Shown here piece by piece: positions 1 to 27,208 of a stretch of 27,208 nucleotides of DNA. The position numbers and the translations under genes were made by a program. Within the stretch, counting starts at the first letter, position 1. Every line of letters starts with the position of its first letter. The notes beneath the pieces were generated by a model. That model saw only the letters and a program-made list of their open reading frames with translations. It searched no databases and was not told the DNA's origin. The stretch is from a virus: the IMG/VR virus record IMGVR_UViG_3300034280_000170, positions 1 through 27,208 of that record. One strand, written 5' to 3'.

Positions 1-116
1 AAAAGGTGTATCTGTGCTTTAAGGGTGCACGGGTAGACGTGACGGAAGTAGTAACCAGTTCTGCGGAGTTCCGCGATATGGTTCGCGAGCGGGTAATCGA
101 CAACAAAGGGTACTAA
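1..116 (+). CDS. 3' end of the 79-residue hypothetical gene that opens the early operon (5' partial)
   Basis: The reading frame is open from the window edge (frame from position 3) to TAA at 114-116. It encodes the same C-terminal residues as the complete gene at the far right of the window, ending in DNKGY. It is not a second gene but the tail of that gene as it crosses the assembly junction. Its stop overlaps the next start in TAATG. Function unknown. Confidence 0.85.
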   Translation, partial: KVYLCFKGARVDVTEVVTSSAEFRDMVRERVIDNKGY

Positions 117-141
117 TGCGCGAACTCAAGCCGGATGTGTG
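1..141. repeat. Terminal direct repeat, left copy
   Basis: These 141 bases recur at the right end of the window. The first 126 are identical and the last 15 differ at three positions (127, 131 and 132 here; 27194, 27198 and 27199 there). The simplest reading is the overlap left when a circular or circularly permuted genome is assembled as a linear contig. A real short terminal repeat is possible. The clustered mismatches fall in the start of the 54-residue gene and change one proline codon to glutamate, so they look like real strain variation rather than random error. Confidence 0.9.
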
Positions 142-280
142 GGAGTACTACCAGTACTACCGCAGGAAACTCGCAGACAAAGACGAATACGGAATCGAGT
201 GGCATTTGCTAAACCTAGCAAAAGCCATTCGAGACCTTAACGATTACATCGAATCAAACCACCAAAACACGGTTAAATGA
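116..280 (+). CDS. Hypothetical protein, 54 residues
   Basis: A short gene linked on both sides by overlapping codons: TAATG with the gene upstream and ATGA with the gene downstream, which strongly supports translation. The product is charged and predicted helical, with a Tyr-rich N-terminal part (WEYYQYYRRKL) and no Cys, signal peptide or membrane segment. I do not recognise the family. It is the second gene of the early operon driven from the promoter at the right end, so an early role is inferred. The other terminal copy of its first codons carries Glu in place of Pro6 and a synonymous Leu codon. Confidence 0.7.
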   Translation: MRELKPDVWEYYQYYRRKLADKDEYGIEWHLLNLAKAIRDLNDYIESNHQNTVK

Positions 281-654
281 AAATTGCACAAGTAACCCAG
301 AACGGAACGTGGGAGAGCCAGTACGGACTCCTTTACCGGATGGAAATCATTCTCGAGGACAACCGCGCCGGGGAGGTCCTCGCGAAGAAGCCGGACCAGT
401 GGAAAGCGGGGGACACGGTAGAAATCGTAGAAGCCAAACCTAATCCTCTGGGCTTGACAAAATGGAAACTCCAGAGGCCGCAACCCGGAGGCGCGAAGCC
501 GGACGACGTTCAGCGCCGTATCGACGCTTCTTGGGCTATCGGTCAAGCTATCCAACTGGGTTTCGCGGGCGGCGAATCCCTTCCCAGCGATGAACGGTTA
601 CTGGAGCGTGCCCAGTACCTCCTTACTCTGCGGGATAAACTCATGCAGATGTAA
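277..654 (+). CDS. OB-fold-like early protein, possible ssDNA-binding accessory (125 residues)
   Basis: Residues 1-70 alternate short beta-strand-like stretches with glycine turns: GTWES near 11, a strand MEIILED around 22-28, then KAGDTVEIVEAK at 43-54. This resembles compact OB-fold nucleic-acid-binding proteins of phages. Residues 75-125 are helical and charged. No catalytic motif is seen. The start overlaps the previous stop as ATGA and the stop overlaps the next start as TAATG. Its place just ahead of the replication initiator fits a DNA replication or recombination accessory role. The fold call comes from strand pattern only and is tentative. Confidence 0.6.
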   Translation: MKIAQVTQNGTWESQYGLLYRMEIILEDNRAGEVLAKKPDQWKAGDTVEIVEAKPNPLGLTKWKLQRPQPGGAKPDDVQRRIDASWAIGQAIQLGFAGGESLPSDERLLERAQYLLTLRDKLMQM

Positions 655-911
655 TGCCGCGGAGTAAACCTTTAGTGATAAAAAACACGGCGACCGATAT
701 ACGGATGTACTGGGAAGAAAACCTATTCGCCAACTTATCGGGCCTTATGAAACTGGGCAATTTCTCTAAATTAGAAGCCCTCCAATACATTGAACAATAT
801 GAACCCACGAACCCCTCTCGAGTTGATGCTATTAACTCATTACAGGACGCTAAGCGGCGCGGCGGAAGCCATTGGCGTAACCGTACAAGCGGTCCGGAGT
901 TGGAGTTATGA
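654..911 (+). CDS. Hypothetical protein, 85 residues, long overlap with the next gene
   Basis: It starts in a TAATG overlap with the OB-fold-like gene. Residues 12-50 look like a folded helical segment (WEENLFANLSGLMKLG, LEALQYIEQYE). The last 35 residues are basic and low in hydrophobics, and they lie in sequence that also encodes the start of the HTH protein in another frame. The 113-base overlap is far longer than others here. Either both frames are used, or a frameshift or sequence error joins or truncates them. Function unknown. The start is well supported by coupling; the C-terminal third is doubtful. Confidence 0.55.
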   Translation: MPRSKPLVIKNTATDIRMYWEENLFANLSGLMKLGNFSKLEALQYIEQYEPTNPSRVDAINSLQDAKRRGGSHWRNRTSGPELEL

Positions 912-1023
912 GAAGCCCGCGAACTTCCTGAAGTACATCCGGGAATGGAATTCTATCACTGGAACGCCGTTTGAGGCCATTATTAAGGCCGTGACGGACA
1001 CCGAAACCCGTTTGAACTCATGA
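799..1023 (+). CDS. Small helix-turn-helix DNA-binding protein (74 residues)
   Basis: The segment LSGAAEAIGVTVQAVRSW, about residues 18-35, is a clear helix-turn-helix of the Cro/YdaS kind: a helix with AA, the turn G-V-T and the recognition helix QAVRSW. The rest is helical. The start is taken at the ATG at 799, with ATG 826 as alternative; an upstream in-frame TTG at 790 is less likely. The stop overlaps the start of the replication initiator as ATGA, so the two are probably co-translated. It may regulate early transcription or assist at the origin. There is no partner repressor or divergent promoter as in a lysogeny switch. Confidence 0.65.
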   Translation: MNPRTPLELMLLTHYRTLSGAAEAIGVTVQAVRSWSYEKPANFLKYIREWNSITGTPFEAIIKAVTDTETRLNS

Positions 1024-1721
1024 CCTCCGGACGCTGGATTCCGGAGCGTATATGGACCTTAAAAGGCCTCTCTATCTTGGAGAGGCTTTTTTTGGCCGAG
1101 GTCGCAGGATTCGTAGATACCGGAAAGGAGTGTTTCGCCAGTAACGAATACTTCGCCGAACGTCTGGACTGTTCCGAGGTCCAAGTACGGAAGATGATAG
1201 TACACCTTTTGGAGACCGGATACCTCGACCGCGACGGTTACGGACGGACTCGAAAACTTGCTATTTCGGAACTTGTTCCGTCTGGAACTTGTTCCATTCA
1301 GAACAAAAGAAGTTCCAAAAGGAACAAGAACTTGTTCCAAAAGGAACAACTAGATGTTCCAAATGGAACACATACTAAACTAGTAGATAGAATAAAGAGT
1401 ACTAGTATAGATATTAAGAAAGGGAAGCCTGATATTTTGATGCCTTTTGAAGGTTCGGAGTTTGTCGAACTCTGGGCCTCGTGGAAAGAATACAAGCGGA
1501 CCCATTTCAAATTCTCGTTCCGTACTTTGCAGTCGGAGCAGGTAGCGTTACACCACCTCCAAAAAATATCAAACGGCGACTATGAAACAGCGCGAACAAT
1601 TATCGGTACAGCCATCGCAAACGGGTGGCGCGGTCTCTATCCCTCGAATACAGGAACTCGTAAAAGCGGGGCCGGAGGAAATGCACCGGAATGGCACAAG
1701 CGTTTCACGGGCGAACTCTGA
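1020..1721 (+). CDS. Phage replication initiator (winged-helix, lambda O / replisome-organiser type), 233 residues
   Basis: Residues 8-80 form a winged helix-turn-helix of the HTH_36 type seen in phage replication initiators, with a recognition region around CSEVQVRKMIVHLLETGYL at 51-69. Residues 83-137 are a polar Lys/Asn/Gln linker whose DNA carries five GTTCC-N4-GGAAC palindromes followed by an AT-rich stretch. Residues 145-207 are a compact C-terminal domain (FVELWASWKEYK, then GWRGLYP) of the kind that contacts a helicase or loader. The layout parallels lambda O, whose origin lies inside its own gene between the DNA-binding and partner-binding domains. The start is coupled (ATGA) to the HTH gene. 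No polymerase or helicase is encoded here, so it presumably recruits host enzymes. Confidence 0.8.
   Translation: MTSGRWIPERIWTLKGLSILERLFLAEVAGFVDTGKECFASNEYFAERLDCSEVQVRKMIVHLLETGYLDRDGYGRTRKLAISELVPSGTCSIQNKRSSKRNKNLFQKEQLDVPNGTHTKLVDRIKSTSIDIKKGKPDILMPFEGSEFVELWASWKEYKRTHFKFSFRTLQSEQVALHHLQKISNGDYETARTIIGTAIANGWRGLYPSNTGTRKSGAGGNAPEWHKRFTGEL
1268..1440. other. Probable replication origin: iteron array plus AT-rich unwinding region
   Basis: Five 14-base inverted repeats GTTCC-N4-GGAAC (the second ends AGAAC) lie at 1275-1288, 1291-1304, 1312-1325, 1334-1347 and 1356-1369. The last four centres are 21-22 bases apart, two helical turns, so bound proteins would sit on one DNA face. An extra GGAAC half-site lies at 1268-1272. 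From about 1370 to 1440 the sequence becomes markedly AT-rich and contains ACTAGTA twice, at 1379-1385 and 1401-1407, again 22 bases apart. The palindromes are seen directly. Their role as initiator sites and the AT-rich part as unwinding element are inferred from their place inside the initiator gene. Confidence 0.75.
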
Positions 1722-2199
1722 AAGCCCGGAACTCCTACGGGCCTTTCTGGGGCGCGAAATCGTACGACTGTCTCAAGCGGTAAAAGTCAATAACACGTTC
1801 TCCAGTGAGGAGGACGTACTGACTGCGGTAGAAGACATTATCGACGAATTCCGGACCCTGAAAATCGAAGAGGTAGTACACGTCTTCACCCAGATACGAA
1901 GAGGGAAGATAGACCTTTACGGGCGGCTCGATACGCCGACCCTTTGCGGGGCCTTGAGAGACTACGACGTGAACACGGCCTGCGAATTCCGCGAAAAGCA
2001 CTACAAAGAGGCCCTAACCACCGAACCCCTTTCTCCTTTGTTTGGGGACATCCTCAAAAGCCTTCCAGAGGTTACGCCTACGTTCGCCGAAATCATGCAA
2101 AGACGGCCTAAATTGACCCCCGAACAAAGGGCGGAAATACACGCACGCGATAAAGCACGCAATGGCTACAACACGGGCACGACTGGTGGCGACGCTTGA
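1681..2199 (+). CDS. Replication-partner protein, possible helicase-loader analogue (172 residues)
   Basis: The frame is open from 1582, but the ATG at 1681 gives a modest 41-base overlap with the initiator and a sensible N-terminus, so I prefer it. Residues 20-110 are helical and include EEVVHVFTQIRRGKIDLYGR, followed by CGALRDYDV. This pattern recurs in a family found beside initiators in Bacteroidota phages and mobile elements, whose function is not known to me. The C-terminus is basic and polar (RPKLTPEQRAEIHARDKAR). Position directly after the initiator suggests helicase loading or another replisome function, which is inference. There is no Walker motif, so it is not a DnaC-type ATPase. 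Confidence 0.65.
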   Translation: MHRNGTSVSRANSESPELLRAFLGREIVRLSQAVKVNNTFSSEEDVLTAVEDIIDEFRTLKIEEVVHVFTQIRRGKIDLYGRLDTPTLCGALRDYDVNTACEFREKHYKEALTTEPLSPLFGDILKSLPEVTPTFAEIMQRRPKLTPEQRAEIHARDKARNGYNTGTTGGDA

Positions 2200-2560
2200 C
2201 CAAATCTTCTCCCGTTATATCCGTTTGCGGGTATGCGACGAATACGGCTATTCGGAGTGCTTTACGTGCGGAGTTCGGAGACACTGGAAAGAAGTAGACG
2301 CGGGCCACTTTATCACGCGAGCCAAATTCGCGACCCGCTGGGACCCGGTAAACGTCCAGTTCCAGTGCAAACGCTGCAACATGAACGGAGGCAAACAGTT
2401 CGAGTTCGGACTGAAGATAGACGGTATCTACGGGGAAGGAACGGCGGAAGAAATACTAATCAAAAGCCAAAGGCCCGCGCGTTATTCAGTAGCCGACCTC
2501 GAACAAATGATACGGCTATATAAATCTGAAGTTGGAAAACTCGAAGGTATTGTGGGATGA
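2162..2560 (+). CDS. NinG/Rap-like recombination nuclease (132 residues)
   Basis: The protein carries the zinc-binding and HNH-like pattern of lambda NinG (Rap): CFTC at residues 33-36, DAGHFI at 46-51 with the key His49, then NVQFQCKRCN at 64-73 with the second Cys pair. In lambda, Rap resolves recombination intermediates such as Holliday junctions and D-loops. Here it probably processes branched replication or recombination intermediates. Its length is nearer the core domain than full lambda NinG, lacking the long N-terminal part. It overlaps the preceding gene by 38 bases and sits in the replication operon, as ninG does in lambdoid phages. Confidence 0.8.
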   Translation: MATTRARLVATLDQIFSRYIRLRVCDEYGYSECFTCGVRRHWKEVDAGHFITRAKFATRWDPVNVQFQCKRCNMNGGKQFEFGLKIDGIYGEGTAEEILIKSQRPARYSVADLEQMIRLYKSEVGKLEGIVG

Positions 2561-3014
2561 GTTCGTTACGGCGAATTACAGTTACCTCCTCAAAGTAGCG
2601 GGTAAATTCTGTACGGAACCTACCGACCTCGTTTCACACACCTACTTGCGGGTAATCGATAAGAGTTTTAAGGAAAAGCCTATGGGCTACTTCTGTACGG
2701 CTATGTACGTAGAGGCCACCCGAGGGAAGTTCAAACAGTTGTATACGCTTCAGGATACCCCGACACCTAAAGAACCTATTTCAGAACCGGGGTTCGAGCG
2801 GTCGGTTAAGCTGGAGCAAATAGAACTGTACATCGACCGCCTCCAGTGGTTCGACCGAATGATTATCCGGCTTTATATAGACGGCCACAAACTTTCGGAA
2901 ATTGCGGAAGAATCGGGTATCAAGCCCGCGACCCTTTACCAGTCCCTACACAGAACTAAAAAGCTGATAGCCGATGCTATTCGTAAGCCAGCAGAAAAAG
3001 GCCGAAAGGCTTGA
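2532..3014 (+). CDS. Sigma-70-family-like (ECF-type) protein, 160 residues
   Basis: The architecture resembles a minimal sigma factor. Residues 5-70 match a region-2-like helical domain (DLVSHTYLRVIDKSF, GYFCTAMYVEATRGKF). Residues 93-150 match region 4, with FDRMIIRLYIDGHKLSEIAE then a helix-turn-helix ending in ATLYQSLHRTKKLI. It probably redirects host RNA polymerase to phage promoters, which is inference. The best start is TTG at 2532, overlapping ninG by 29 bases; TTG at 2550 is an alternative and there is no suitable ATG. A non-sigma regulator of the same fold is possible. Confidence 0.65.
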   Translation: MENSKVLWDEFVTANYSYLLKVAGKFCTEPTDLVSHTYLRVIDKSFKEKPMGYFCTAMYVEATRGKFKQLYTLQDTPTPKEPISEPGFERSVKLEQIELYIDRLQWFDRMIIRLYIDGHKLSEIAEESGIKPATLYQSLHRTKKLIADAIRKPAEKGRKA

Positions 3015-3468: not shown

Positions 3469-3489
3469 ACCCATCAAACAGACGAAAAA

Positions 3490-4027: not shown

Positions 4028-4044
4028 CCCCTAACCAAGGAAAC

Positions 4045-4248: not shown

Positions 4249-4254
4249 CCAGAG

Positions 4255-4698
4255 ATGAGCCGCCAGCTAAAAACGAAGAAGCGGGAAATACGAGAGTATT
4301 GGGCCGATAAGATGTTCGAATGCCCGGAGGATTTAGAGACATGCTGGGGATGCGCTTTTTCCGTAGGTACGCAAAGGTGCCACATTCAAGCCGTTTGTGA
4401 CGGAGGAACGGACAGCCCGGATAACCTTATGCTACTCTGCAAAATGTGCCATATCATGCAGGAAACCATTTGCGGAAATGCAGTAAACAGAACCCCGTTT
4501 ATTGAGGCAATCAAAGACGGAGCGCCGTTTATGACCGCACGCCTCGAGTATTTTATCATTATGGAGGAATACGGTTATCTACCGCCTCTTAAATACCTCG
4601 AAAAACAATCAAACGATAAAACACCGCCTCCATTTCCAGATAGCAGGGAAATCATGGCAATAATAAATAAAAACCGATATGAGCACTTTATCCCTTAA
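4255..4698 (+). CDS. HNH endonuclease, 147 residues
   Basis: A canonical HNH fold is visible: zinc cysteines C30 and C33 (CWGC) and C62 and C65 (CKMCH), the catalytic pair CHIQA with His43, Asn57 in SPDNLMLLC and His66. The 3' half of the gene is AT-rich with runs such as aataataaataaa, unlike its neighbours, suggesting recent acquisition. It may be a free-standing homing-type nuclease or one acting in packaging or superinfection exclusion. It lies about 1.9 kb upstream of the terminase genes rather than beside them. It overlaps the next gene by 20 bases. Confidence 0.8.
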   Translation: MSRQLKTKKREIREYWADKMFECPEDLETCWGCAFSVGTQRCHIQAVCDGGTDSPDNLMLLCKMCHIMQETICGNAVNRTPFIEAIKDGAPFMTARLEYFIIMEEYGYLPPLKYLEKQSNDKTPPPFPDSREIMAIINKNRYEHFIP

Positions 4699-5029
4699 AG
4701 CCTACCGCGAACAGGTACAAAGCGGTAAAGACCTCCCGAAGGTCTACCACGTCTATTCCTTAATCGACAAAACACCTGGAGTAAGCCTAAACTACCTCCG
4801 AGTCGTGTCGCAGTACCCACACCAAACCCTAACCTCCGCTATTTCTCGGCTTATGGATTCAGGAATGGTATACCAGTCCGACGCGGGAGACTTCTACCCC
4901 GTCCCGGCAGGATACGAACCGCGATACAACGAAAACAGAAGGCAGGACCGATTCCGAAAGTGGATTAACCTCGGACGGCGCGAAGGCTTCTTCGACGACT
5001 GGATGAGGGAAGAACTAGCACGCGGCTAA
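4679..5029 (+). CDS. Winged-helix DNA-binding protein, 116 residues
   Basis: Residues 22-75 match a winged helix of the MarR/phage-regulator kind: helix HVYSLIDKTPG, helix LNYLRVVSQYP, recognition helix QTLTSAISRLMDSG, then a wing MVYQSDAGDFYPV. The C-terminal part is basic and aromatic (RFRKWINLGRREGFFDDWM). It could regulate phage transcription; no operator is evident. The ATG at 4679 lies inside the end of the HNH gene and the stop forms TAATG with the next gene. Confidence 0.7.
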   Translation: MSTLSLKAYREQVQSGKDLPKVYHVYSLIDKTPGVSLNYLRVVSQYPHQTLTSAISRLMDSGMVYQSDAGDFYPVPAGYEPRYNENRRQDRFRKWINLGRREGFFDDWMREELARG

Positions 5030-5109: not shown

Positions 5110-5342
5110 GTTACACGAAAGAAGAACGCCACCAGATAGCGGCCCAAATACTCAAGTACGCACGGGACGGTAAGATTCATTCGTACGTACCCAGACCGAC
5201 GTACCACCTAGATAGCCAGTACACGGAAAGAATCCGACCGGCCGACGCGGTAGACCGTGCATGGCTCGAAGTAGTAGCGAGGGACGTAATGGGCGAAATT
5301 TGGCACGATGAAGAATACTGGACCACAACGGGCAAGGCTTGA
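5106..5342 (+). CDS. Hypothetical protein, 78 residues
   Basis: The start is coupled to the membrane peptide through ATGA. The product is polar, with a helical N-terminus (KEERHQIAAQILKYARDGK), a Tyr/Pro-rich middle and an acidic helical C-terminus (VDRAWLEVVARDVMGEIWHDEEYW). It overlaps the methyltransferase gene by 35 bases. I do not recognise the family. Confidence 0.6.
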   Translation: MSYTKEERHQIAAQILKYARDGKIHSYVPRPTYHLDSQYTERIRPADAVDRAWLEVVARDVMGEIWHDEEYWTTTGKA

Positions 5343-6573
5343 GACCCTCAAGCCAAACCCGAAGAACCCGCGGGTAATCAAGGACGACAAATTCCAGAAA
5401 CTCGTTCAGTCGATTAGAGCGTTCCCGCAGATGTTAGAGGTACGCCCTATCGTCTGCACGCCGGACGGGGTTGTATTGGGCGGAAATATGCGTCTACGGG
5501 CTTGCAAAGAAGCCGGACTGCGGGAGGTTCCCGTTCACGTGGTTTCGTGGCTCGATTCCCAGCAAGAAGAATTCATAATTAAGGATAACGTAGGGTACGG
5601 AGAATGGGACTGGGACATCCTCGCGAATGAGTGGGACGCAAACCAACTCGAGGACTGGGGACTCGATGTGTGGACTCCTGAACCGGAACCCGAAGAAGGT
5701 TTGACGGACCCGGACGAAGTGCCTAGCGTCCCCGAAGAACCGAAGACCAAACCGGGAGACCTGTACATCCTCGGAAAACACCGTCTGCTCTGCGGAGATT
5801 CTACAAACGCGGAACACGTGGCTCGGTTAATGGATGGACAGAAAGCGGACTTGTGCTTTACATCTCCTCCATACGGGCAACAAAGAGACTACGGAGCAGC
5901 AAAGGAAGCGGTCCAAGACTGGGACGCGTTAATGTTGGGAGTATTCGCAAATCTTCACATGAAACCAGACGGTCAAGTTCTTGTAAACTTGGGGCTTATC
6001 CATCGAGATAACGAAGTACAGTTATACTGGGAGAACTGGATAGAGTGGATGCAGTCGGAAGGCTGGCGAAGGTTTGGCTGGTATGTGTGGGATTCAGGTT
6101 CAGGAATGCCCGGGGATTGGGCCGGCCGATTTGCGCCGTCGTTCGAATTCGTTTTTCACTTCAATAAAAAAGCGAAGAAGCCGGAGTATATCATTGAAAA
6201 GAAAGTTGAAAGTATTAAGGTAAAAAAAGGCAAGGGTATACGACAAAAAGACGGCAAAGTGCGGGCAATTACAAGCGGACATAAAGGGTTAAACCCGATG
6301 AAGATTCAAGATTCCGTCATTCGCGCAAATCGGGAAACGCGAGAAATTCGCTCCTCGCATCCAGCCACCTTCTCGGTAGAGTTCGCAGAAGTATTTATCC
6401 AGTCGTGGCCCGGTTTAATTTATGAGCCGTTTTTAGGTTCCGGTACTACTATGATAGCCTCGGAGCAAAACGCATCAACTTGTTACGGAATGGAACTTGA
6501 CCCCAAATACTGCGACGTAATTGTAAAGCGGTGGGAGGACTTCACGGGAAAAAAGGCAGAACTCGTTAGTTAA
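5308..6573 (+). CDS. ParB-like domain fused to a DNA methyltransferase (N4-cytosine/N6-adenine type), 421 residues
   Basis: Residues 10-95 match the ParB/Srx-like N-terminal domain (LKPNPKNPR, then GGNMRLRACKEAGL at 58-71). An acidic linker follows. From 150 there is an amino-methyltransferase with TSPPYG at 185-190 (motif IV) and FLGSGTT at 375-381 (motif I, cofactor binding), so motif IV precedes motif I as in beta-class enzymes; a variable target-recognition region lies between. It probably methylates phage DNA to evade host restriction. No cognate endonuclease is adjacent, so it is an orphan. DNA from about 5930 to 6500 is AT-richer than either end, suggesting the catalytic and target parts were exchanged. 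TSPPY does not by itself separate N4C from N6A activity. Confidence 0.85.
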   Translation: MKNTGPQRARLETLKPNPKNPRVIKDDKFQKLVQSIRAFPQMLEVRPIVCTPDGVVLGGNMRLRACKEAGLREVPVHVVSWLDSQQEEFIIKDNVGYGEWDWDILANEWDANQLEDWGLDVWTPEPEPEEGLTDPDEVPSVPEEPKTKPGDLYILGKHRLLCGDSTNAEHVARLMDGQKADLCFTSPPYGQQRDYGAAKEAVQDWDALMLGVFANLHMKPDGQVLVNLGLIHRDNEVQLYWENWIEWMQSEGWRRFGWYVWDSGSGMPGDWAGRFAPSFEFVFHFNKKAKKPEYIIEKKVESIKVKKGKGIRQKDGKVRAITSGHKGLNPMKIQDSVIRANRETREIRSSHPATFSVEFAEVFIQSWPGLIYEPFLGSGTTMIASEQNASTCYGMELDPKYCDVIVKRWEDFTGKKAELVS

Positions 6574-6575: not shown

Positions 6576-6920
6576 ATGAACTCGACAATTTCGGCGCCTA
6601 AAAAGGTCGCCATGTTGGAAGCCCTCGAGAAGTCTTTGGGTATCGTTTCGACAGCGGCGAAGGCCGCGAATGTAGACCGACAGAGTCACTACAACTGGAT
6701 GAAAGACGACCCCGCCTACAAAGCGGCGGTAGAGTCCATTCAAGAAAGTGTAATCGACTTTGCAGAATCGCACCTCTACAAACTCGTAAAAGAGGGGAAC
6801 CCCGCCGCGACTATCTTCTACCTGAAGACCAAAGGAAAGAAGCGCGGATATATCGAGCGGCAGGAAATCGAGGTAACGGAACGCTCGCCCCTTTCATGGC
6901 TTAACGGCGAAGGCCTTTGA
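6576..6920 (+). CDS. terS: Terminase small subunit, 114 residues
   Basis: The N-terminal half has the helix-turn-helix typical of small terminases: KVAMLEALEKSLGIVSTAAK, then the recognition helix VDRQSHYNWMKDDPAY. Residues 55-90 are helical and suited to ring assembly, including IDFAESHLYKLVKEGNPAA and IFYLKTKGKKRGY, which recur in this family. It should bind the packaging site and guide the large subunit. Its TGA overlaps the TTG start of the large subunit. The size is usual for the family. Confidence 0.85.
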   Translation: MNSTISAPKKVAMLEALEKSLGIVSTAAKAANVDRQSHYNWMKDDPAYKAAVESIQESVIDFAESHLYKLVKEGNPAATIFYLKTKGKKRGYIERQEIEVTERSPLSWLNGEGL

Positions 6921-8068
6921 AACTCGCGAAGACGTACTACGACGTACGCAACTGCAAGACCCGGATACAGGTACACCAGGGAGGTACCCGTTCGGGCAAA
7001 ACGTATTCTATCCTCCTTTCGCTGGTCGAGTTCTGTTACAGGAACCCAAACGGCGGGGCGGTACTCACCATTTGCCGAAAGACCTTCCCGGCGCTCCGCG
7101 CTTCCGTTATGCGGGACTTCTTTGAGATACTCAAGCGCGAAGGAATCTACACGGAGGTAAACCACAATAAGAGCGACGCCACCTATATCCTCGAGGGGAA
7201 CCTGATAGAATTTATCAGTATTGACCAGCCCCAGAAGATACGCGGACGCAAGCGTGACCTACTTTTCATAAACGAGGCGAACGAACTAAACCTCGAAGAC
7301 TTCAGGCAGTTACTTATCCGAACCACGGGTAAGGTACTTTTGGACTACAACCCCTCCGATGAATTCCACTGGATATACGACCACGTAATACCTCGAGAAG
7401 ATGCCACGTTCTTTCAGTCGACGTTCCGAGACAATCCCTTCCTTGAACCGTCCCTCGTTACCGAGATTGAACGGCTACAAGTGGCCGACCCGAACTACTG
7501 GAGAATCTACGGACTCGGAGAGCGGGGACAATCCCGAAGCACCATCCTCACCCACTGGAGCCAAACCGAAACCATAGACCCGCGGTTTAAGCTGGTAGCG
7601 TACGGCCTCGACTTCGGGTACACGAACGACCCGACGGCCTGCGTAGCGGTCTACTCGGACGGGGAAGCGTTCCTGCTCGATGAAATACTATACCGGAACG
7701 GCCTTTCGAATAGGCAGATATTCCAACTGCTCGAATCGGAGGTAGGGAAGAACACGGTAATCGCAGACAGCGCCGAACCGAAGTCTATCGACGAACTACA
7801 CGGCTACGGGATGAACGTACACCCAGCGCGCAAGGGTCCCGACTCCGTACGCGCGGGAATTCAGTTCTTTCACTCGAAGCCTTTGGCTGTTACGTCCCGT
7901 TCGCTGAACCTGATAAAGGAACTACGGAACTACAAGTGGAAGGAGGACAAAAACGGGAAGAACCTCAACGAACCTGTAGACGCGTTTAACCACGCTATCG
8001 ACGCGGCGAGGTATGCGGCTATGTTCAACCAGAGCAACCCGAACTACGGGAGGTACCGGATAGGATGA
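6917..8068 (+). CDS. terL: Terminase large subunit, 383 residues
   Basis: This packaging motor has a Walker A motif GGTRSGKT at 22-29, a Walker B motif LLFINEAN at 115-122 and a C-terminal RNaseH-like nuclease with Asp232 (YGLDFGYTND), Asp284 (VIADSAEP) and Asp355/Asp362 (VDAFNHAIDAARYA). It belongs to the Terminase_3/PBSX group. Translation starts at TTG 6917, overlapping the small-subunit stop as TTGA; no ATG is available before the conserved N-terminus. At 383 residues it is slightly compact but complete. Whether packaging is headful or cohesive-end cannot be told from sequence alone. Confidence 0.95.
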   Translation: MKLAKTYYDVRNCKTRIQVHQGGTRSGKTYSILLSLVEFCYRNPNGGAVLTICRKTFPALRASVMRDFFEILKREGIYTEVNHNKSDATYILEGNLIEFISIDQPQKIRGRKRDLLFINEANELNLEDFRQLLIRTTGKVLLDYNPSDEFHWIYDHVIPREDATFFQSTFRDNPFLEPSLVTEIERLQVADPNYWRIYGLGERGQSRSTILTHWSQTETIDPRFKLVAYGLDFGYTNDPTACVAVYSDGEAFLLDEILYRNGLSNRQIFQLLESEVGKNTVIADSAEPKSIDELHGYGMNVHPARKGPDSVRAGIQFFHSKPLAVTSRSLNLIKELRNYKWKEDKNGKNLNEPVDAFNHAIDAARYAAMFNQSNPNYGRYRIG

Positions 8069-9118: not shown

Positions 9119-11371
9119 ATGATTACTCTAAACACCATTATAAAGCGGTTCGAAGACTTCGCAGATAACCACTTCTTTATCCGGTCCTTTTCGTTTGGGT
9201 CGCCGGAAGATGTGGACCTACAGAAGTTCGATTCGTATCCGCTCATGCACGTAGTCTATACGGGGGCTACGTACGAGGACACCACGAAAACGCTGGACTT
9301 CGAGGTATATATCTTCGACCTCCCCAGCCACTACGAATCAAAGACAGAGCGGCAAAAGGAGATAGTAAGCGACGCGGAACAATGCGCGGAGGATATCCTC
9401 GCAGACATCGCAAACGGGGGTAATATCTTCATCTTCTCGGAGGATTACGAGGTGGTAAACGCCACTGTCACCCCTCTGCAAGAAGCGGGGTCTAACGTCC
9501 TCGCGGGGGTCCTTCTGGAACTGGGAATCCAACTCCCGTACGACCGCAGCGCGTGCGACGCTCCTATAGACGGGGTACAACCTGAAGGGGGCGGGTTCGT
9601 CTACGCACGGAGGGGCCTTCTGCGGATGCTCACGCAGGATGGGACCGTGGATGTCCTTTCGGTAAACACTATCAAAGTAGCGAACGGCACCCTCACGGAC
9701 GAAGGGAACGGGGTAGTTAGCTTAACGACTGGAGGCGGGGCGGGAGGTTCTTTGGAAGACCTCGACGACGTGACGATAACGGACCCTCTCGACCACGACG
9801 CGTTGATTTACGACGAAGTTTCGGCGGAGTGGATTAACGGAGCACCCCGCGCCCTCGATATGGCCGTATACAACGGTTCAGGGTCTGTAATCGCGAAAGG
9901 GAAATTACTGAAGGCCATAGGCAGCCACGGGGACAAAGTTTCGGTAGGCCTGTTCGACTTGGATGTAGATAGCCCGATGTATCTGGTAGGACTTGCGGAG
10001 GAGCAGTTAGCTATCGGAGGCACGGGCCACGCACGTACGTACGGGGAACTTCGGGGAATCAATACGAACGCCTACGCTATAGGAACGATTCTATACGCTT
10101 CCGGGACGGCGGGGGAACTCTCGAGTACGGCGGGCGTTCCGGCTATCCCGGTAGCAACGGTTACACGGTCACAACAAAATACCGGACGCCTATACGTACG
10201 GACGTGGACACCCGGAAATGAAGAGCCAGCGTTTAGCACGTTTGCGGTTTCCGGACAATCGAACGTAGTAGCAAACGACACGCGGGCAACCGTTACCCTT
10301 GTTTCAGGAACGGGGGTGAATATTACCACTAACGCGGGGGCGGATAGTATCACAATTGCAAGTACGATTAACTCGTTCAGCAACATCGCCGTATCCGGAC
10401 AGTCGAACGTGATAGCGGACAGCGCGGGGGACACCCTTACGCTGGCAGCAGCCGGGGGAATGACTATCACTACCAACGCCACCACGGACACCGTTACACT
10501 TGATAGCGCATGGCTGGATGAAGATGACGTAACGCTTGCGGGAAACCGTACCATTGACGTAGACGGCAACGATTTAATCATTCAAAATACCGCCTCCTAT
10601 AGGCTCATTGAGATACAGCCCGATGCAGTAATAACTGCAGGCCTATCAGTCCGCGATGTGCATGGAACAACGGCTGGAGCAATTAGATTGTTTGAAGCGA
10701 CAGATAACGGAGGGTTTTCTATCACTTTACAGGCACCCGCACAGCTAACCGCTAGTACCATCTTTACCCTCCCTTCCGCCGACGGGACCAACGCACAAGT
10801 ACTACAGACCAACGGCTCCGGCACGCTTTCGTTTGCTTCTCTGCTTACTACCGCAGCGACCACCACCGCCGGGGCTATCCTCGAACTACGGGAAGGGACC
10901 AACAACGGGACCAACTACGTGCGCATTCAGGCCCCCGCTTCCCTTGCGGCAAATGTCACCTATACGCTTCCGACCGCAGACGGAACAAACGGTCAAGTAC
11001 TTTCTACAAACGGAACTGGAACCCTTTCGTGGGCTACCTCAAGCGGAGGGGGCGCGAGTTACAGCGCTGTCCGTACGCAGTCGGGAACAAGTTACACCCT
11101 CGTGCTCGGAGACGCGGGCGACTACATTCAAACCACGAGCACAACGGCCGTAACTATCACCGTTCCGAACCAAGTAACGGTAACGTGGGCGGCGGATACG
11201 GAAATCTATTTCGAGCAAAACAACACCGGCCAAATCACATTCGGCGGTGCCAGCGGCGTGACCATTAACAGCAGCGAAACCCTCAAGACCTTCGCGAGGT
11301 ATTCGGTGGTGGCGCTTAAGCGGGTGGCGTCCGACGTGTGGACCTTAACCGGAGAACGCGCACTGGTATGA
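9119..11371 (+). CDS. Tail terminator-like domain fused to a repetitive fibre, 750 residues
   Basis: Residues 1-150 form a compact alpha/beta domain (VVYTGATYEDTTKTLDFEVY, then DAEQCAEDILADIANGG, then LLELGIQLPYDRSACDAPI) resembling the separate tail-completion/terminator proteins of Bacteroidota siphophages. A glycine-rich linker (GGGAGGSLEDLDD, near 202-215) leads to a fibre shaft with two pairs of internal repeats: AVSGQSNV units near 376 and 424, and GAI...LPxADGTN units near 519 and 584. A C-terminal beta domain (about 640-750; AGDYIQTTSTTAVTITVPN, DVWTLTGERALV) is typical of phage fibre tips. It probably anchors at the head-tail joint or tail and contributes to adsorption. The fusion itself is unusual. 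A patch near 10570-10740 is AT-richer, suggesting exchange. Confidence 0.75.
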   Translation: MITLNTIIKRFEDFADNHFFIRSFSFGSPEDVDLQKFDSYPLMHVVYTGATYEDTTKTLDFEVYIFDLPSHYESKTERQKEIVSDAEQCAEDILADIANGGNIFIFSEDYEVVNATVTPLQEAGSNVLAGVLLELGIQLPYDRSACDAPIDGVQPEGGGFVYARRGLLRMLTQDGTVDVLSVNTIKVANGTLTDEGNGVVSLTTGGGAGGSLEDLDDVTITDPLDHDALIYDEVSAEWINGAPRALDMAVYNGSGSVIAKGKLLKAIGSHGDKVSVGLFDLDVDSPMYLVGLAEEQLAIGGTGHARTYGELRGINTNAYAIGTILYASGTAGELSSTAGVPAIPVATVTRSQQNTGRLYVRTWTPGNEEPAFSTFAVSGQSNVVANDTRATVTLVSGTGVNITTNAGADSITIASTINSFSNIAVSGQSNVIADSAGDTLTLAAAGGMTITTNATTDTVTLDSAWLDEDDVTLAGNRTIDVDGNDLIIQNTASYRLIEIQPDAVITAGLSVRDVHGTTAGAIRLFEATDNGGFSITLQAPAQLTASTIFTLPSADGTNAQVLQTNGSGTLSFASLLTTAATTTAGAILELREGTNNGTNYVRIQAPASLAANVTYTLPTADGTNGQVLSTNGTGTLSWATSSGGGASYSAVRTQSGTSYTLVLGDAGDYIQTTSTTAVTITVPNQVTVTWAADTEIYFEQNNTGQITFGGASGVTINSSETLKTFARYSVVALKRVASDVWTLTGERALV
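10240..10510 (+). repeat. Two tandem fibre repeats (AVSGQSNV type)
   Basis: Two successive units of roughly 130-145 bases encode AVSGQSNVVANDTRATVTL and AVSGQSNVIADSAGDTLTL, each followed by a glycine turn and ITTNA. The DNA has diverged (tccggacaatcgaacgta versus tccggacagtcgaacgtg), so this is an old duplication kept for structure. Such repeats lengthen a trimeric fibre shaft. Confidence 0.7.
10674..11036 (+). repeat. Two fibre repeats (GAI...TLPxADGTN type)
   Basis: One unit runs from about 10674 to 10845 and one from about 10871 to 11036. Each encodes GAI, a charged strand, a QAPA turn, FTLPSADGTN or YTLPTADGTN, QVLxTNGxGTLS and an aromatic strand. The pattern is known from phage and prophage fibres and is consistent with stacked beta-prism or beta-helix units. 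Confidence 0.7.
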
Positions 11372-13076: not shown

Positions 13077-14306
13077 ATGGCCGCTTCCTTTACGTCTAAC
13101 CCTTCGGAAACGTGGATGCCCGCGGGTCAGCCCCTTATCTACACGCTCCAAACGTCCCTGACGATTACGGACACGTTCGCGTTTATCGTACAGGTATTCG
13201 AGAACGGGACGGAGATAGGGAAATACTACCTCAAGCCGAATTCTAATAACCGGGCGCATTTCGACTTAAACCGAGTAATTCAGGCGCGGACGCGGGTAGA
13301 CGAAAAGGTATACAACGCTTCTACCCTGCTATTCGATTACTCGACGCTTCCCTATACCCGGAGCAACGGGAACATGAACAAGTACGAAGTAAAAATCGGG
13401 GAGTACACGGGCACGGAGGCGCTCGCACAGGCCACGAAGTATATCTACGTGATGGACGGGTACGAGCAGGTTACTAGCGGCCTGCATCCCTCGTTTGCGG
13501 ACTACTACGGAACAGCCAGCACAAAGAAGTTTTGGCTAACGGACCGGGAACCGGTAAATAACGTAATCACGATAGAAGCGGCGGACGACGACGAGGGATT
13601 TATGGCCTTTATCAATAAGGACACCGTTTCTGATGTTACGCGGCTTTCGTTTCAGCTTATCCCCCCGACGGGAGCACCGACTACGGTAACGAAAGACCTG
13701 AACACGACGAACGGCGCACAACTCCCGTCCGCGTCCTCCCCTACGAATGGGTTTCTGGTATACGCGGGTATCATGCCTGCGCAGGTCCTAACTCCTATCT
13801 TTTCCGCGACCTCGTGGAAGCAAATTACCATTACCCCTCAAAACGCGTCTGGGACTCAAGAAGGGAATGTATTGTCTATCATTCGCGACTGCACAGACTA
13901 CAAAGACCAGGCGGTACAGGTAGCGTTCGCGAACTCGCGGGGCGGCTGGGACTACCTCAAGTTCGAAGGGCGGCCGGGGCGTAGTATCACGACCGAAGAA
14001 AAGACCTACCGCAAGGCCCTCGGCAATTACGACGCGGCTACCTATACCTTCCAAAGTTTTAACCCGGAGGTAGAAGCGTACCAGAAGACCGCGAAACTCC
14101 AGTATATCCTAAACGGCCTGTTTAACGTCGCAGATTCTAAACTGCTCCCGTTCCTGCTCCGCTCGCGGAAGGTGTACGCAAAAATCGACGGAGTATGGAA
14201 TCCGGTAACTGTCACGACCTCTCAAGCGACCTATAAGACTACCGCAGACGGACGCGTGACCCAGCTAGCCCTAAACGTAGAACTCGCTCAAGTTATCCGA
14301 TGCTAA
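13077..14306 (+). CDS. Virion structural protein, probable distal-tail or tail-tip component (409 residues)
   Basis: The protein is strand-rich with repeated beta-sandwich signatures. It opens with PSETWMPAGQPLIYTLQTS, then FIVQVFENGTEIGKYYLKPN and FDLNRVIQARTR, features of tail proteins in Bacteroidota phages. Residues 280-400 include GWDYLKFEGRPGRS and a further domain with LLRSRKVYAKIDGVWNPV. No enzyme motif is seen. It overlaps the next, longer tail protein by 7 bases and precedes the tape measure, so a tail-tip or distal-tail role is likely. Confidence 0.6.
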   Translation: MAASFTSNPSETWMPAGQPLIYTLQTSLTITDTFAFIVQVFENGTEIGKYYLKPNSNNRAHFDLNRVIQARTRVDEKVYNASTLLFDYSTLPYTRSNGNMNKYEVKIGEYTGTEALAQATKYIYVMDGYEQVTSGLHPSFADYYGTASTKKFWLTDREPVNNVITIEAADDDEGFMAFINKDTVSDVTRLSFQLIPPTGAPTTVTKDLNTTNGAQLPSASSPTNGFLVYAGIMPAQVLTPIFSATSWKQITITPQNASGTQEGNVLSIIRDCTDYKDQAVQVAFANSRGGWDYLKFEGRPGRSITTEEKTYRKALGNYDAATYTFQSFNPEVEAYQKTAKLQYILNGLFNVADSKLLPFLLRSRKVYAKIDGVWNPVTVTTSQATYKTTADGRVTQLALNVELAQVIRC

Positions 14307-22267: not shown

Positions 22268-22643
22268 CGGTAACCAGAACATCTACCTCACGCTTCAGGA
22301 CGCGGGGCGGGATTACACGTACACCCATTACCTGTTTAAGCTGGTGCACCGGATGACCCTCGAAGATTTCTATTTCGTGGGATACGTGATTAACGACAAT
22401 CCGAGGTACACAAAGATTCAGGTAGCTACGAACGCGACCACGACGAATAACGTCCTTTTGACGGAGACCGGGGATTACGATTATTTCGTCTATGCCCAGA
22501 ACTCAAGTACCAATAAAGACCCAAATAACGCGGCGGTTGTAGCTTTAATCGAGCAGGGTACCTTGCGCGTTCCGGGGGCGGCTATCGTAAGCCTCCCTAC
22601 TATCACTCTCGAAGATAACGTACTGTTCTATGGCAACGAATAA
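22245..22643 (+). CDS. Hypothetical virion-associated protein, 132 residues
   Basis: The start lies 23 bases inside the end of the second glycosyltransferase gene and the stop overlaps the portal gene by 14 bases. The product is beta-rich with many Asn, Thr and Tyr (NIYLTLQDAGRDYTYTHYLF, then YIVINDNP-like and DYDYFVYAQNSSTNKD stretches). Similar small beta-sandwich proteins occur near portals and fibres of Bacteroidota phages, possibly head decoration, but I cannot assign it. Asn- and Thr-rich surfaces could be sugar acceptors for the neighbouring enzymes, which is speculation. Confidence 0.6.
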   Translation: MLYLNSNSGNQNIYLTLQDAGRDYTYTHYLFKLVHRMTLEDFYFVGYVINDNPRYTKIQVATNATTTNNVLLTETGDYDYFVYAQNSSTNKDPNNAAVVALIEQGTLRVPGAAIVSLPTITLEDNVLFYGNE

Positions 22644-24282
22644 AATCGAAAACGTCCAACTCAAGACGTACGAAGCTAGGTCCTACCGCGAACACGCGAA
22701 GGGGGACTGGGTCAAGTACGGGGACGACAACCTATTCCCTAACTATCTGGTAGACCTGTACCATTGCAGCCCGACGCATAACGCGTTATGTACGACTATC
22801 GGGATGATGATTTACGGGGAGGGGTTCGAGCCCGCGGACCTGAACGCGAAACTGCTCGCGGCACAGTGGGACCTGAATTCGGAACTCCGGAAATGCGCTA
22901 TCGACCTGAAGATACAGAACGGTTTCGCTCTCGAGGTTAACTGGAGCGTAGACCGGACGGTAATTGCAAACATTAGCCACCTCCCGTTCGAGAATCTACG
23001 TTCCGGGGTCTGCGACGAAGAAGAGGTAGTACAGTGGTATTACTACTCGCGGGACTGGAGCGACTCCAGACAGGAACCTATGGCCATAGCCCGCTTTAAC
23101 CCAGAGACGAAGAACGAGTACCCTACGCAAGTTCTCTATGTTAAACCCTTCTCGGTAGGGTCTTACTACTACCCGAAGCCCGACTATATCGGGGCAATTA
23201 ACTATATCGAACTTGAAAAGGAAATTTCGGTATTCCACATAAACAATATCAAGAACGGTCTTTCTCCTTCGTTCGCGATTCATTTTAAAAACGGCATCCC
23301 TTCCGACGAAGAGCGCCGCGAAATCCGTCGGGATATCGAAAGGCAGGCCGCCGGAGCACAGAACGCGGGTAAGTTCTGGATGACCTTTTCCGATGAACCG
23401 GACCGCGCCCCGACTATCGAGGCGTTTACCCTTTCGGACGCGGATAAGCAGTACCAGTTCCTTTCGGAGGAAACCACCGCGAAGATTATGATAGGCCACC
23501 GCGTCACAAACCCGCAGATGTTCGGGGTTATGGTCGCGGGGAAACTAGGGGGCGGAACCGAATTAGAGGCCTCTATGGACCTTTTCGAGCAGCAGGTAAT
23601 CAACCCCTACCAGCAGGTAATCGAGGAGGCCGTTAAAACGCTTCTAAACGCTTCGGGAGTGGATTCTAGTTTGGTAGAACTTTCGGAAGAACACAACCTC
23701 GACGGGGTAGCGGACTACCTCGAAGGATTAGGGGAGCAGATGGGTGATGACTGGGAGTTAATCGACGAACGAGAAGTAGACTACGACCGCGAAGAAGAGT
23801 ACGACGCGCTTTGGACGTTTGCGCGTACGCTCCGGAATAACCCGTCGGCAAAGAGTTCGCAGGATAACGAAATAGTTCGGGTACGTTACGCGTACGCTCC
23901 TACGACCCTCGCAGACGGACGGAGCCGCGATTTCTGCACGCGTATGATTCAGGCCATGAAGGTCTACCGGAAGGAGGATATTATGCAGGCGGGTAGTCAA
24001 GCGGTGAATCCCGGATGGGGACCGAACGGAGCCGACACGTACGACATTTGGTTATACAAAGGCGGCGGGTCCTGTCGCCACTTCTGGATGCGCCAAACGT
24101 ACCTGAAGCGTAATAACGACCTCGTTTCTGTCAACGAGGCGAAGCGTCTGATTCAGGCCCTCCCGCCGGACGAACGCAAGAAGAACAAGCTAGAAGAAAA
24201 TGACCGCAAGGTGGCCCAGCGCCCCCGCGACATGAAGAACAGAGGTTTCCTGAAGCCCCGCAAATTCACAACTCCCCGATAA
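22630..24282 (+). CDS. Portal protein, 550 residues
   Basis: The N-terminus contains DWVKYGDDNLFPNYLVDLYH and SPTHNALCTTIGMMIYGEGF, recurrent in portals of Bacteroidota phages. The middle has the clip and stem segments including EEVVQWYYYSRDWSDSR and FHINNIKNGLSPSFAIHFKN. RVTNPQMFGVMVAGKLGGG near 297-315 and EASMDLFEQQVINPYQQVIE follow, typical of the portal wing. The C-terminal 150 residues are less conserved and basic. It forms the dodecameric DNA gate at the head vertex. Its distance from the terminase genes is unusual. Confidence 0.85.
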   Translation: MATNKIENVQLKTYEARSYREHAKGDWVKYGDDNLFPNYLVDLYHCSPTHNALCTTIGMMIYGEGFEPADLNAKLLAAQWDLNSELRKCAIDLKIQNGFALEVNWSVDRTVIANISHLPFENLRSGVCDEEEVVQWYYYSRDWSDSRQEPMAIARFNPETKNEYPTQVLYVKPFSVGSYYYPKPDYIGAINYIELEKEISVFHINNIKNGLSPSFAIHFKNGIPSDEERREIRRDIERQAAGAQNAGKFWMTFSDEPDRAPTIEAFTLSDADKQYQFLSEETTAKIMIGHRVTNPQMFGVMVAGKLGGGTELEASMDLFEQQVINPYQQVIEEAVKTLLNASGVDSSLVELSEEHNLDGVADYLEGLGEQMGDDWELIDEREVDYDREEEYDALWTFARTLRNNPSAKSSQDNEIVRVRYAYAPTTLADGRSRDFCTRMIQAMKVYRKEDIMQAGSQAVNPGWGPNGADTYDIWLYKGGGSCRHFWMRQTYLKRNNDLVSVNEAKRLIQALPPDERKKNKLEENDRKVAQRPRDMKNRGFLKPRKFTTPR

Positions 24283-26315: not shown

Positions 26316-26326
26316 AACCCTTTGAC

Positions 26327-26485
26327 ATGTGGGACTTTTTCGCAGAAAACTGGACCGAGATTCTTCTCGCGGTGATAACCCTTTTGGGCACGTTTACGGC
26401 ACTGACGGAAACGAAGAAGGACGACACAATTCTCGACCTTCTAAAGCGAATCGTGAACGCGGTAGTTCTCGGACGGAACAAGTGA
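26327..26485 (+). CDS. Small holin-like membrane protein, 52 residues
   Basis: The ATG at 26327 is preferred; the open frame reaches back to 26201 but that part lies within the phosphoesterase gene. Residues 9-26 are a transmembrane helix (WTEILLAVITLLGTFTAL) followed by a charged amphipathic helix (DDTILDLLKRIVNAVVLGRN). The size and single span fit small holins or holin partners of Bacteroidota phages. The next gene begins within its stop as GTGA. Confidence 0.65.
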   Translation: MWDFFAENWTEILLAVITLLGTFTALTETKKDDTILDLLKRIVNAVVLGRNK

Positions 26486-26697
26486 ACCCCCTATTATCGA
26501 TTTTAAGGGGTCTAGATTTAACTCAAATCTTTAAGACGAAGGGAGACCTCACCCGATGGTCTGCGAAGCGAACCGTGGGCGGTCTAATTGCGTCAACCGC
26601 TTGTTACGATATTGTCGAGCACGGTATCACGTGGCCCGCGGTAGTTCTTTGCGCGGTTGCCATTGTGCCCCTTTGTATTTCGCTAGGAAAGGATTAA
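26482..26697 (+). CDS. Second holin-like membrane protein with GTG start, 71 residues
   Basis: The GTG start overlaps the previous stop as GTGA. The N-terminal 30 residues are amphipathic and basic (LRGLDLTQIFKTKGDLTRW); residues 31-45 and 50-68 are hydrophobic (AVVLCAVAIVPLCISL) and could make one or two spans. This pairing of two coupled small membrane proteins after the endolysin is the usual layout of a holin/antiholin or holin/partner system. Which is the pore former cannot be decided. Confidence 0.6.
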   Translation: MNPLLSILRGLDLTQIFKTKGDLTRWSAKRTVGGLIASTACYDIVEHGITWPAVVLCAVAIVPLCISLGKD

Positions 26698-26698
26698 G

Positions 26699-26729
26699 TT
26701 TGGATACCCTTTTGGGTGCATTAAGTTTC
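26699..26729 (+). promoter_or_regulatory. Near-consensus Bacteroidota promoter in the main non-coding region
   Basis: TTTG at 26699-26702, a 19-base spacer and TAAGTTTC at 26722-26729, one mismatch from TAnnTTTG. It begins at the stop codon of the last lysis gene and points into DNA with hairpins but no gene before the next terminator. Confidence 0.5.
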
Positions 26730-26732
26730 TCG

Positions 26733-26762
26733 GGCCTCATCTCTAAACGTAGGGATGGGGCC
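26733..26762 (+). terminator. Hairpin after the lysis genes
   Basis: GGCCTCATC and GATGGGGCC pair over 9 bp with one wobble and a 12-base loop; the sequence after it is TTTATCTTTG. It could be a weak terminator or an RNA structural element. Confidence 0.45.
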
Positions 26763-26858
26763 TTTATCTTTGAGCGGAACGCTGGACGTGTGGAACGTGC
26801 ATTCGTTTGTTTGATAATTTGGTAAAGGGCTGCTCGAAACGTCGGGCGGCCCTTTTTT
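26736..26858 (+). ncRNA. Candidate small RNA with two hairpins
   Basis: A transcript from the promoter at 26699-26729 would begin near 26736 and end at the strong terminator, about 120 bases long with no convincing open frame. It would contain a 9-bp hairpin (26733-26762, one G-U pair) and the 13-bp terminator hairpin. This rests on promoter, terminator and lack of coding only. The same parts could simply be lysis-operon termination. Confidence 0.25.
26824..26858 (+). terminator. Strong Rho-independent terminator of the lysis region
   Basis: A 13-bp stem (26824-26836 with 26843-26855, two wobble pairs), AAACGT loop and a T6 tail. It isolates late transcription from the early promoter that follows. 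Confidence 0.9.
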
Positions 26859-26891
26859 CTTCCCAGAAGGTTAGAAAAAGATTCAGGGAAG

Positions 26892-26922
26892 TTTGGAAGT
26901 TCACAGGTTTGGAGTATCTTTG
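26892..26922 (+). promoter_or_regulatory. Bacteroidota-type promoter of the early operon
   Basis: TTTG at 26892-26895, a 19-base spacer and TATCTTTG at 26915-26922, an exact consensus match. The TTTGGAAG-TT flank matches the promoter at 8087, and the leader TCAAACAAAC precedes ATG 26944. Transcription would cross the assembly junction into the replication genes. Confidence 0.85.
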
Positions 26923-26943
26923 TCGGGTCAAACAAACAAAGCG

Positions 26944-27183
26944 ATGGAAGACTACACTCTGATTCTGGTCGAGGACGCGCAAATCCAGCACCTCGAGTTC
27001 GAATGCCACTACGAGGCCTACTCGGATGACGAAGACGGCTCATGGGCTGGAGACTGCGTAGACGTTCAAAAGGTGTATCTGTGCTTTAAGGGTGCACGGG
27101 TAGACGTGACGGAAGTAGTAACCAGTTCTGCGGAGTTCCGCGATATGGTTCGCGAGCGGGTAATCGACAACAAAGGGTACTAA
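26944..27183 (+). CDS. Hypothetical acidic protein, 79 residues, first gene of the early operon
   Basis: The start is the ATG after the promoter and leader; an upstream in-frame start at 26893 lies inside the promoter and is rejected. The product is acidic and strand-rich in its first half (YTLILVEDAQIQHLEFECHY, then an SDDEDGSW loop) and ends with a helix (AEFRDMVRERVIDNKGY). It might be an early host-takeover protein, by position only. It continues as the partial copy at the window start, and its stop forms TAATG with the 54-residue gene. Confidence 0.75.
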   Translation: MEDYTLILVEDAQIQHLEFECHYEAYSDDEDGSWAGDCVDVQKVYLCFKGARVDVTEVVTSSAEFRDMVRERVIDNKGY

Positions 27184-27208
27184 TGCGCGAACTAAAGGAG
27201 GATGTGTG
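27068..27208. repeat. Terminal direct repeat, right copy
   Basis: It matches positions 1-141 at 138 of 141 positions; the differences are in the last 15 bases, within the first codons of the 54-residue gene (CTC to CTA, CCG to GAG). After removing one copy the genome is about 27,067 bp. Confidence 0.9.
27183..27208 (+). CDS. 5' fragment of the 54-residue hypothetical gene (second copy)
   Basis: ATG within TAATG, followed by codons for MRELKEDV before the window ends. It is the redundant copy of the gene that starts at 116, and differs from it by Glu in place of Pro6. Confidence 0.8.

Follow-up and report, generated by a model that had tools for sequence, protein, structure and literature searches.

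The elimination of restriction sites from phage genomes is already established. In the sections of Rusinov et al. (2018, PMC6286503) on which we draw, every one of 46 phages with hosts encoding the enzyme had a GATC bias below 1; near-exclusion was raised only for non-temperate double-stranded DNA phages. The genomes of the staphylococcal phages K and fRuSau02 are described as free of GATC, which was explained by host restriction enzymes (PMC5618024), and that of phiX174 as completely devoid of it, for which escape from mismatch repair was proposed (PMC5014478). Flavobacterium psychrophilum is reported to have many restriction-modification systems, including a predicted CCNGG cutter (PMC11837570). 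Here, we analyzed IMG/VR virus record IMGVR_UViG_3300034280_000170, an uncultured phage sequence of 27,208 base pairs (bp), the whole of which is called the window. It contains no GATC and is almost or entirely free of three further short sites, CTNAG, CCWGG, and GAGCT, and is an unusually clean case of site elimination. The best reading, which we consider very likely, is that a phage, probably non-temperate and with probable Bacteroidota hosts, has purged its genome of type II restriction sites.

An exact count on both strands found no GATC in the window, as compared with expectations of 85.7 (second-order Markov model) and 103.8 (base composition). An earlier note on this DNA had described GATC as apparently wholly absent where about 100 would be expected by chance, and had proposed exact 4-mer counts against codon-shuffled or Markov models; these counts bear it out. 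The lowest GATC count was 76 in 500 synonymous-codon shuffles of 25 genes spanning 21,942 bp (mean 98.5, standard deviation 7.6) and 65 in 200 second-order Markov simulations (mean 86.2). A further run of 300 shuffles of the same genes gave a mean of 99.5 against 0 observed. GATC was the sole 4-mer missing from the window. Other tetramers occurred freely, as had also been claimed (observed/expected: GTAC 172/172.5, TCGA 183/147.3, CCGG 136/166.1, GGCC 122/107.8, and CATG 53/41.4).

1..27208, no strand assigned: entire record; phage genome, essentially complete, GATC absent from both strands, ends overlapping by 141 bp.

The two ends of the window (1-141 and 27068-27208) matched at 138 of 141 positions, the three mismatches all falling within the last 15 bases. 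In four relatives (L151, L152, L155, and L009), the two window ends adjoin, with an overlap of about 140 bp. Thus, the absence of GATC holds for essentially the whole genome, and the record either is a complete genome in permuted form or has strain variants at the assembly end.

It had been implied that a single palindrome is avoided, which was not borne out. Our scan covered 821 patterns (palindromic, gapped, and degenerate) together with every asymmetric 4-mer and 5-mer, and CTNAG (1 observed, 71.4 expected), CCWGG (3, 60.2), and GAGCT with its complement AGCTC (0, 34.8) were also purged. The sites left in the window are the following.

850..854, no strand assigned: the only CTNAG (CTAAG), 71.4 being expected.
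4775..4779, no strand assigned: first of three CCWGG, 60.2 being expected.
6976..6980, no strand assigned: second CCWGG by exact count, inside the terminase large-subunit gene.
13907..13911, no strand assigned: third CCWGG by exact count.

In the 300-shuffle run, CTNAG was observed 0 times against a mean of 45.6, CCWGG twice against 45.6, and GAGCT 0 times against 44.1. Thirteen 5-mers were absent from the window and all are accounted for: eight contain GATC, three are CTNAG, and two are GAGCT/AGCTC. AGCT was left at 37 copies (68.7 expected), none of them preceded by G or followed by C. Weaker depletions, partly overlapping the purged words, were found for GRGCYC (1/21.2), RAGCTY (1/22.2), CCYRGG (5/30.1), CCMKGG (4/27.5), ATTGG/CCAAT (9/36.6), and CCNNGG (75/131.6). 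An observed/expected ratio below 0.1 with more than 15 sites expected, taken as elimination, was found for GATC, CTNAG, CCWGG, and GAGCT, under an expectation model that is not identical to that of PMC6286503.

Relatives of the window were collected using two of its genes.

6917..8068, plus strand: terminase large subunit (PF04466, PF17288), used to find relatives.
2532..3014, plus strand: sigma-factor-like protein (Sigma70_r4_2), used to find the nearest relatives.

The terminase yielded 80 viral loci and the sigma-like gene 13, four of which were already among the 80. Twenty distinct loci (L002-L013, L024, L083, and L151-L156), with aligned DNA diverged by 4 to 12% from the window, formed the near-relative set. 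Sixty-seven of the 80 terminase loci, with less than 98% identity, were excluded from the gain test, as were the more distant L157 and L159, L158 (on the contig of L010), and further loci duplicating the contig of L006 or L010. The number of sites expected to arise by single and double changes was calculated from each locus's own substitution rates, and the four purged words and 13 control words were scored in 13 relatives (L002-L013 and L024).

The purged words arose far less often than expected: 13 gains against 123.5 for GATC, 15 against 102.9 for CTNAG, 21 against 70.8 for CCWGG, and 1 against 72.0 for GAGCT. The control words ranged from 0.48 (CATG) to 1.24 (TTAA) of expectation, with observed/expected gains of GTAC 136/119.8, TCGA 125/118.1, GGCC 112/123.0, CATG 43/90.4, TTAA 104/84.2, TGCA 60/104.0, ACGT 140/122.3, CTCAC 33/45.3, GAGAC 37/65.5, CTNGA 192/229.6, GTNAC 64/100.6, GCWGC 46/66.5, and GGWCC 84/80.8. 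Sixteen of the 20 near-relatives showed zero aligned GATC gains against 134.7 expected, and the remaining four showed 3 against 4.8 (L002), 8 against 14.8 (L012), 2 against 16.0 (L024), and 7 against 5.5 (L083). Any GATC in the fetched stretches was confined to six of the 20, namely these four and L003 and L156, which have one each outside the aligned parts. GAGCT was missing from 19 of 20, and L024 has two. An apparent GATC common to L013 and L154 at window position 11239 was rejected as an artefact of skipped inserted bases; neither locus contains GATC. Since GATC fails to arise in most relatives while the control words do, its elimination is actively maintained by selection and is not a matter of composition.

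We compared the window with the contig of L014 (6,588 aligned codons with 72% amino-acid identity and slight overlap between a few genes). All 37 aligned GATC sites of L014 are lost in the window; 23 of them keep the same residues, and 11 of these 23 now read GACC. GAGCT fell from 86 in the L014 alignment to 0, with residues unchanged at 41, and the control words GTAC and TCGA are still common to both sequences at 39 and 55 sites, respectively. In the L014-like group (L014-L022, about 77% terminase identity), GATC stands at about 0.4 of expectation, CCWGG is very low, and GAGCT is normal. The window lineage therefore probably completed its GATC loss and lost GAGCT after the split from this group.

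The purged sites differ across the family. Among 27 sequences of at least 9 kilobases (kb), including the window, GATC and CTNAG were each flagged in 11 and CCWGG in 16; CCWGG was normal or high in L030 (27/27) and L032 (24/11). L023 (1-17045; 77% terminase identity) lacks GATC (0/90), AGCT (0/43), CTNAG (0/17), and CCWGG (0/13). The family member L057 (1-15332) lacks GGCC (0/58) and keeps GATC (22/59), and L078 lacks CTNAG (0/28). That different lineages are without different sites supports restriction purging.

Further word losses were seen in passing. L023 is also without CCAG (0/44) and GGACC (0/28), among several asymmetric words, and is more purged than the window. GATC is abundant in L087 (1-17480), with 239 copies in 17.5 kb and 237 expected from its trinucleotides, and AGCT is absent (0/48). 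In L247 (1-42658, Flavobacterium phage FPSV-S2), CATG is nearly gone (2/131) and GATC reduced (47/151), and in L338 (1-35700, Nonlabens phage P12024S), GGCC (0/32) and CCWGG (1/20) are lost or nearly so and GATC is normal (82/91).

The window encodes a DNA methyltransferase just upstream of the terminase gene.

5308..6573, plus strand: METHYLTRANSFERASE locus, a 421-amino-acid fusion of ParB_N and N6_N4_Mtase DNA methyltransferase domains (PF02195, PF01555, phrog_498).

The portion after the ParB_N region is swapped or missing among close relatives, so that at least three recognition-domain types and a ParB_N-only form occur among closely related phages. Full-length versions are present in L006 and L153 (with 73% identity to the window in the recognition stretch), L004 (a second type), and L083 (a third type, 99% identical in this stretch to L020 of the 77% group). 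In L002, L009, and L010, an open frame of 181 to 186 amino acids lacks the catalytic part; the frames of L002 and L009 match residues 1-135 and 403-421 of the window enzyme, and that of L010 residues 1-129 only. L008, L011, L154, L155, and L156 match the window enzyme up to residue 183 or less, which suggests that they likewise lack the catalytic part. That a ParB_N-only stub of about 180 amino acids is retained suggests that the ParB_N part has a separate role.

Phages with the full enzyme (the window, L004, L006, and L153) and phages with the ParB_N part only (L009 and L010) alike lack GATC. Thus, the enzyme neither causes nor replaces the GATC purge, and it was rejected in both roles, as GATC status is independent of its presence. 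Among 79 loci with similar recognition domains, five have GATC below 0.25 of expectation and the pooled ratio is 0.91, a pattern confounded by taxonomy. The earlier note supposed that the encoded methyltransferase would protect another site; L009, L010, and the 79 loci indicate that it is probably right in so far as the enzyme is not the answer to GATC. No purged motif was seen to be released in the carriers (the window, L006, and L153) relative to L009, L010, L151, L152, L154, and L155, a comparison set in which the state of the gene in L151 and L152 was not established; CCWGG was even lower in the carriers (3/110 versus 18/153). With no carrier-specific release and a 79-locus pattern confounded by taxonomy, motif frequencies gave no readout of the specificity of the window recognition domain. 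The enzymes of the window and L083 differ in motif (TSPPYG and DPPYG, respectively), a difference that presumably hints at distinct target bases. Among the solved structures nearest to the window enzyme are N4-cytosine enzymes, with weak scores. The recognition domain of L087 clusters with that of the window.

In L083, GATC arose at the expected rate (7/5.5), and CTNAG (0/4.7), CCWGG (0/3.1), and GAGCT (0/3.3) did not arise. L012 is similar, with 8/14.8 for GATC, 0/12.3 for CTNAG, 0/9.5 for GAGCT, and 3/9.8 for CCWGG. The constraint on GATC can thus relax alone while the other sites stay purged, and this GATC-only relaxation makes a general mutational or compositional cause unlikely. Six of the seven GATC sites of L083 are private, and the seventh is common to the L002 contig. 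Where the contig of a near-relative covers the gene, regained GATC and a full methyltransferase, here of a swapped type, occur together only in L083, a combination that is possibly new. Relaxed GATC also occurs in L002, which has no methyltransferase domain, and in L012, where the gene lies outside the contig. Phages with related domains are mixed in GATC observed/expected (TPWB-09 82/81, WCP30 50/77, pOW20-A 36/167, L248 11/52, and L020 11/32). The L083 pattern fits a GATC-protecting enzyme, and a move to hosts without a GATC enzyme fits it equally well. A broader proposal, which we regard as doubtful, is that site purging and recognition-domain swaps are two interchangeable defences: the L020-like domain of L083 would methylate GATC and release only that site, and the missing words would record the restriction repertoire of the uncultured host, including an uncatalogued GAGCT specificity.

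The portal protein gave some evidence on the host.

22630..24282, plus strand: portal protein (phrog_33693), matched in the phage collection only by Nonlabens phages.

The portal matches comprised four records, and the best 29 of 1,339 terminase matches were Flavobacterium phages at about 40% identity. Two matches came from the genome collection, a Chitinophagaceae bin (49% identity) and a Patescibacteria bin (46%). In the phage collection, no near DNA match was found for window positions 1-25000 and no match for the major capsid protein, and we found no published work on this phage group. The Bacteroidota hosts proposed earlier are thus moderately supported, by the Nonlabens portal, the Flavobacterium terminases, and one of the two bins, the other being Patescibacteria; the host is probably a member of Bacteroidota, at the phylum level only. 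In three stretches of the Chitinophagaceae bin (20,000, 8,667, and 6,574 bp; the counts exclude a fourth, of 1,156 bp), observed/expected values were 24/53, 32/36, and 16/22 for GATC, 50/47, 13/12, and 14/18 for CTNAG, and 46/48, 5/11, and 13/14 for CCWGG. GATC was mildly low in the longest stretch. The phage word pattern is not copied from this bin genome.

From these data, we infer selection by host restriction enzymes, Bacteroidota hosts, and a non-temperate phage. Several host type II enzymes would target GATC, CTNAG, CCWGG, and GAGCT, and the first three activities are presumably MboI/DpnII/Sau3AI-like, DdeI-like, and EcoRII-like, respectively. If the phage is never or rarely a methylated prophage, each unprotected site would be cuttable on entry, and each new site would reduce survival and be removed, largely via silent changes. 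Restriction-driven avoidance, as the earlier note had proposed, is the best explanation, and the failure of most relatives to gain GATC strengthens it.

Several observations weigh against this explanation. Six control words were low in the gain test (CATG 0.48, GAGAC 0.56, TGCA 0.58, GTNAC 0.64, GCWGC 0.69, and CTCAC 0.73 of expectation), so the neutral expectation is not exact, and the 20 relatives, being of common descent, do not count as independent trials. We know of no GAGCT-specific enzyme, and a literature search for one found none; the GAGCT purge is possibly new. Purging implies frequent exposure, yet the enzyme families sampled are rare: the scan of candidate hosts for GATC systems that the earlier note had called for found them present, but DpnII in only 4 of 195 genomes of the family sample around the bin and 9 of 395 of the class sample (5 strong and 4 weak partial matches). 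The class sample also held MutH/Sau3AI-type enzymes in 16 of 395 (15 over the cut-off) and EcoRII-C in 10 of 395. In Flavobacterium psychrophilum, the GATC methyltransferase is described as an orphan with no cognate cutter (PMC11837570).

Other causes were weighed against host restriction. We regard it as next to negligible that base composition, codon usage, or mutation, such as deamination of methylated GATC, accounts for the absence. The codons of the window are skewed as this would predict: all 88 Asp codons that precede a C are GAC, none of the 89 Ile codons that follow a G-ending codon is ATC, and AATC (122/95.3) and GATT (110/87.5), which deamination would produce, lie somewhat above expectation. 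However, ATC is overall the commonest Ile codon (203 of 420), GAT encodes Asp in 118 of 415, and codon shuffles never fell below 76 GATC. Because ATC and GAT are otherwise used, the codon skew is the avoidance itself. The largest excesses are those of TATC (164/99.6) and GATA (125/84.9), which are not deamination products, and the majority of control words appear at close to the neutral rate, so that the gain test already disfavours this cause. It is also highly improbable that a nuclease of the phage itself cuts the purged sites and forces its genome to avoid them, although an HNH protein is encoded near the methyltransferase gene.

4255..4698, plus strand: HNH endonuclease-like protein (PF01844).

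This gene was found in none of the 80 terminase-selected loci, only part of which span its region, and in none of 10 GATC-free near-relatives in which both flanking genes are present (L004, L006, L008, L009, L010, L011, L151, L153, L154, and L155), and was therefore rejected as the cause of the GATC absence. Four separate specificities would moreover be required. This comparison covered the HNH gene, and other nucleases were not examined singly. Dam/MutH repair is a system of Escherichia coli and its relatives, whereas the nearest named phages infect Bacteroidota, and we give little weight to the idea that GATC is avoided to escape such repair. It was proposed for phiX174, which is devoid of GATC and in which added GATC sites are reported to lower the mutation rate eightfold (PMC5014478), but it leaves the loss of CTNAG, CCWGG, and GAGCT unexplained, and elimination in the window is not confined to GATC. 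The pressure on GATC may instead come from DpnI-type cutting of methylated GATC, with hosts alternating between methylating and methyl-cutting strains. The two kinds of cutting cannot be told apart from sequence data, but to our knowledge no modification-dependent enzyme recognizes CTNAG or GAGCT, and we consider this very unlikely. The cited sections of PMC6286503 treat GATC as a Type IIM site in the 46 phages mentioned above, but explain the weak avoidance seen at modification-dependent sites mostly by ordinary type II enzymes.

The HNH protein has a weak sub-threshold match to IscB (NF040563, E-value 1e-5). The window also encodes a protein of a junction endonuclease family.

2162..2560, plus strand: NinG-like protein of the NinG/Rap junction endonuclease family (profile match).

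Pfam scans of 27 of the 43 listed window proteins and PHROGs scans of two more revealed no integrase, the rest being mostly short and unscanned.

For an uncultured phage, likely host restriction specificities can thus be read from absent words and checked by a neutral gain test between close relatives. Site purging predicts GAGCT and CTNAG specificities in the hosts, and a GATC specificity is predicted for one swapped methyltransferase. As the phenomenon is established, the gain is in resolution and not a new mechanism. Like the non-temperate double-stranded DNA phages in the cited sections of PMC6286503, the window has near-zero counts of short type II sites, with GATC, consistently under-represented there, among them. 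Unlike those phages, it has four sites purged in one 27 kb genome, one of them asymmetric (GAGCT), and its losses were gain-tested. It shares the lack of GATC with phages K and fRuSau02 as described in PMC5618024, but it is a small phage, its nearest named relatives infect Bacteroidota, and three more sites are missing. As in phiX174, as described in PMC5014478, GATC is absent, but the window is also without or nearly without CTNAG, CCWGG, and GAGCT. The methyltransferase locus has the same domains as the phrog_498 fusions of ParB_N and N6_N4 methyltransferase upstream of terminase, and the Staphylococcus phage TPWB-09 record likewise lists DNA methyltransferases just upstream of the terminase genes. 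Unlike these fusions, the locus in the window group swaps or loses its catalytic and recognition part among otherwise very similar phages.

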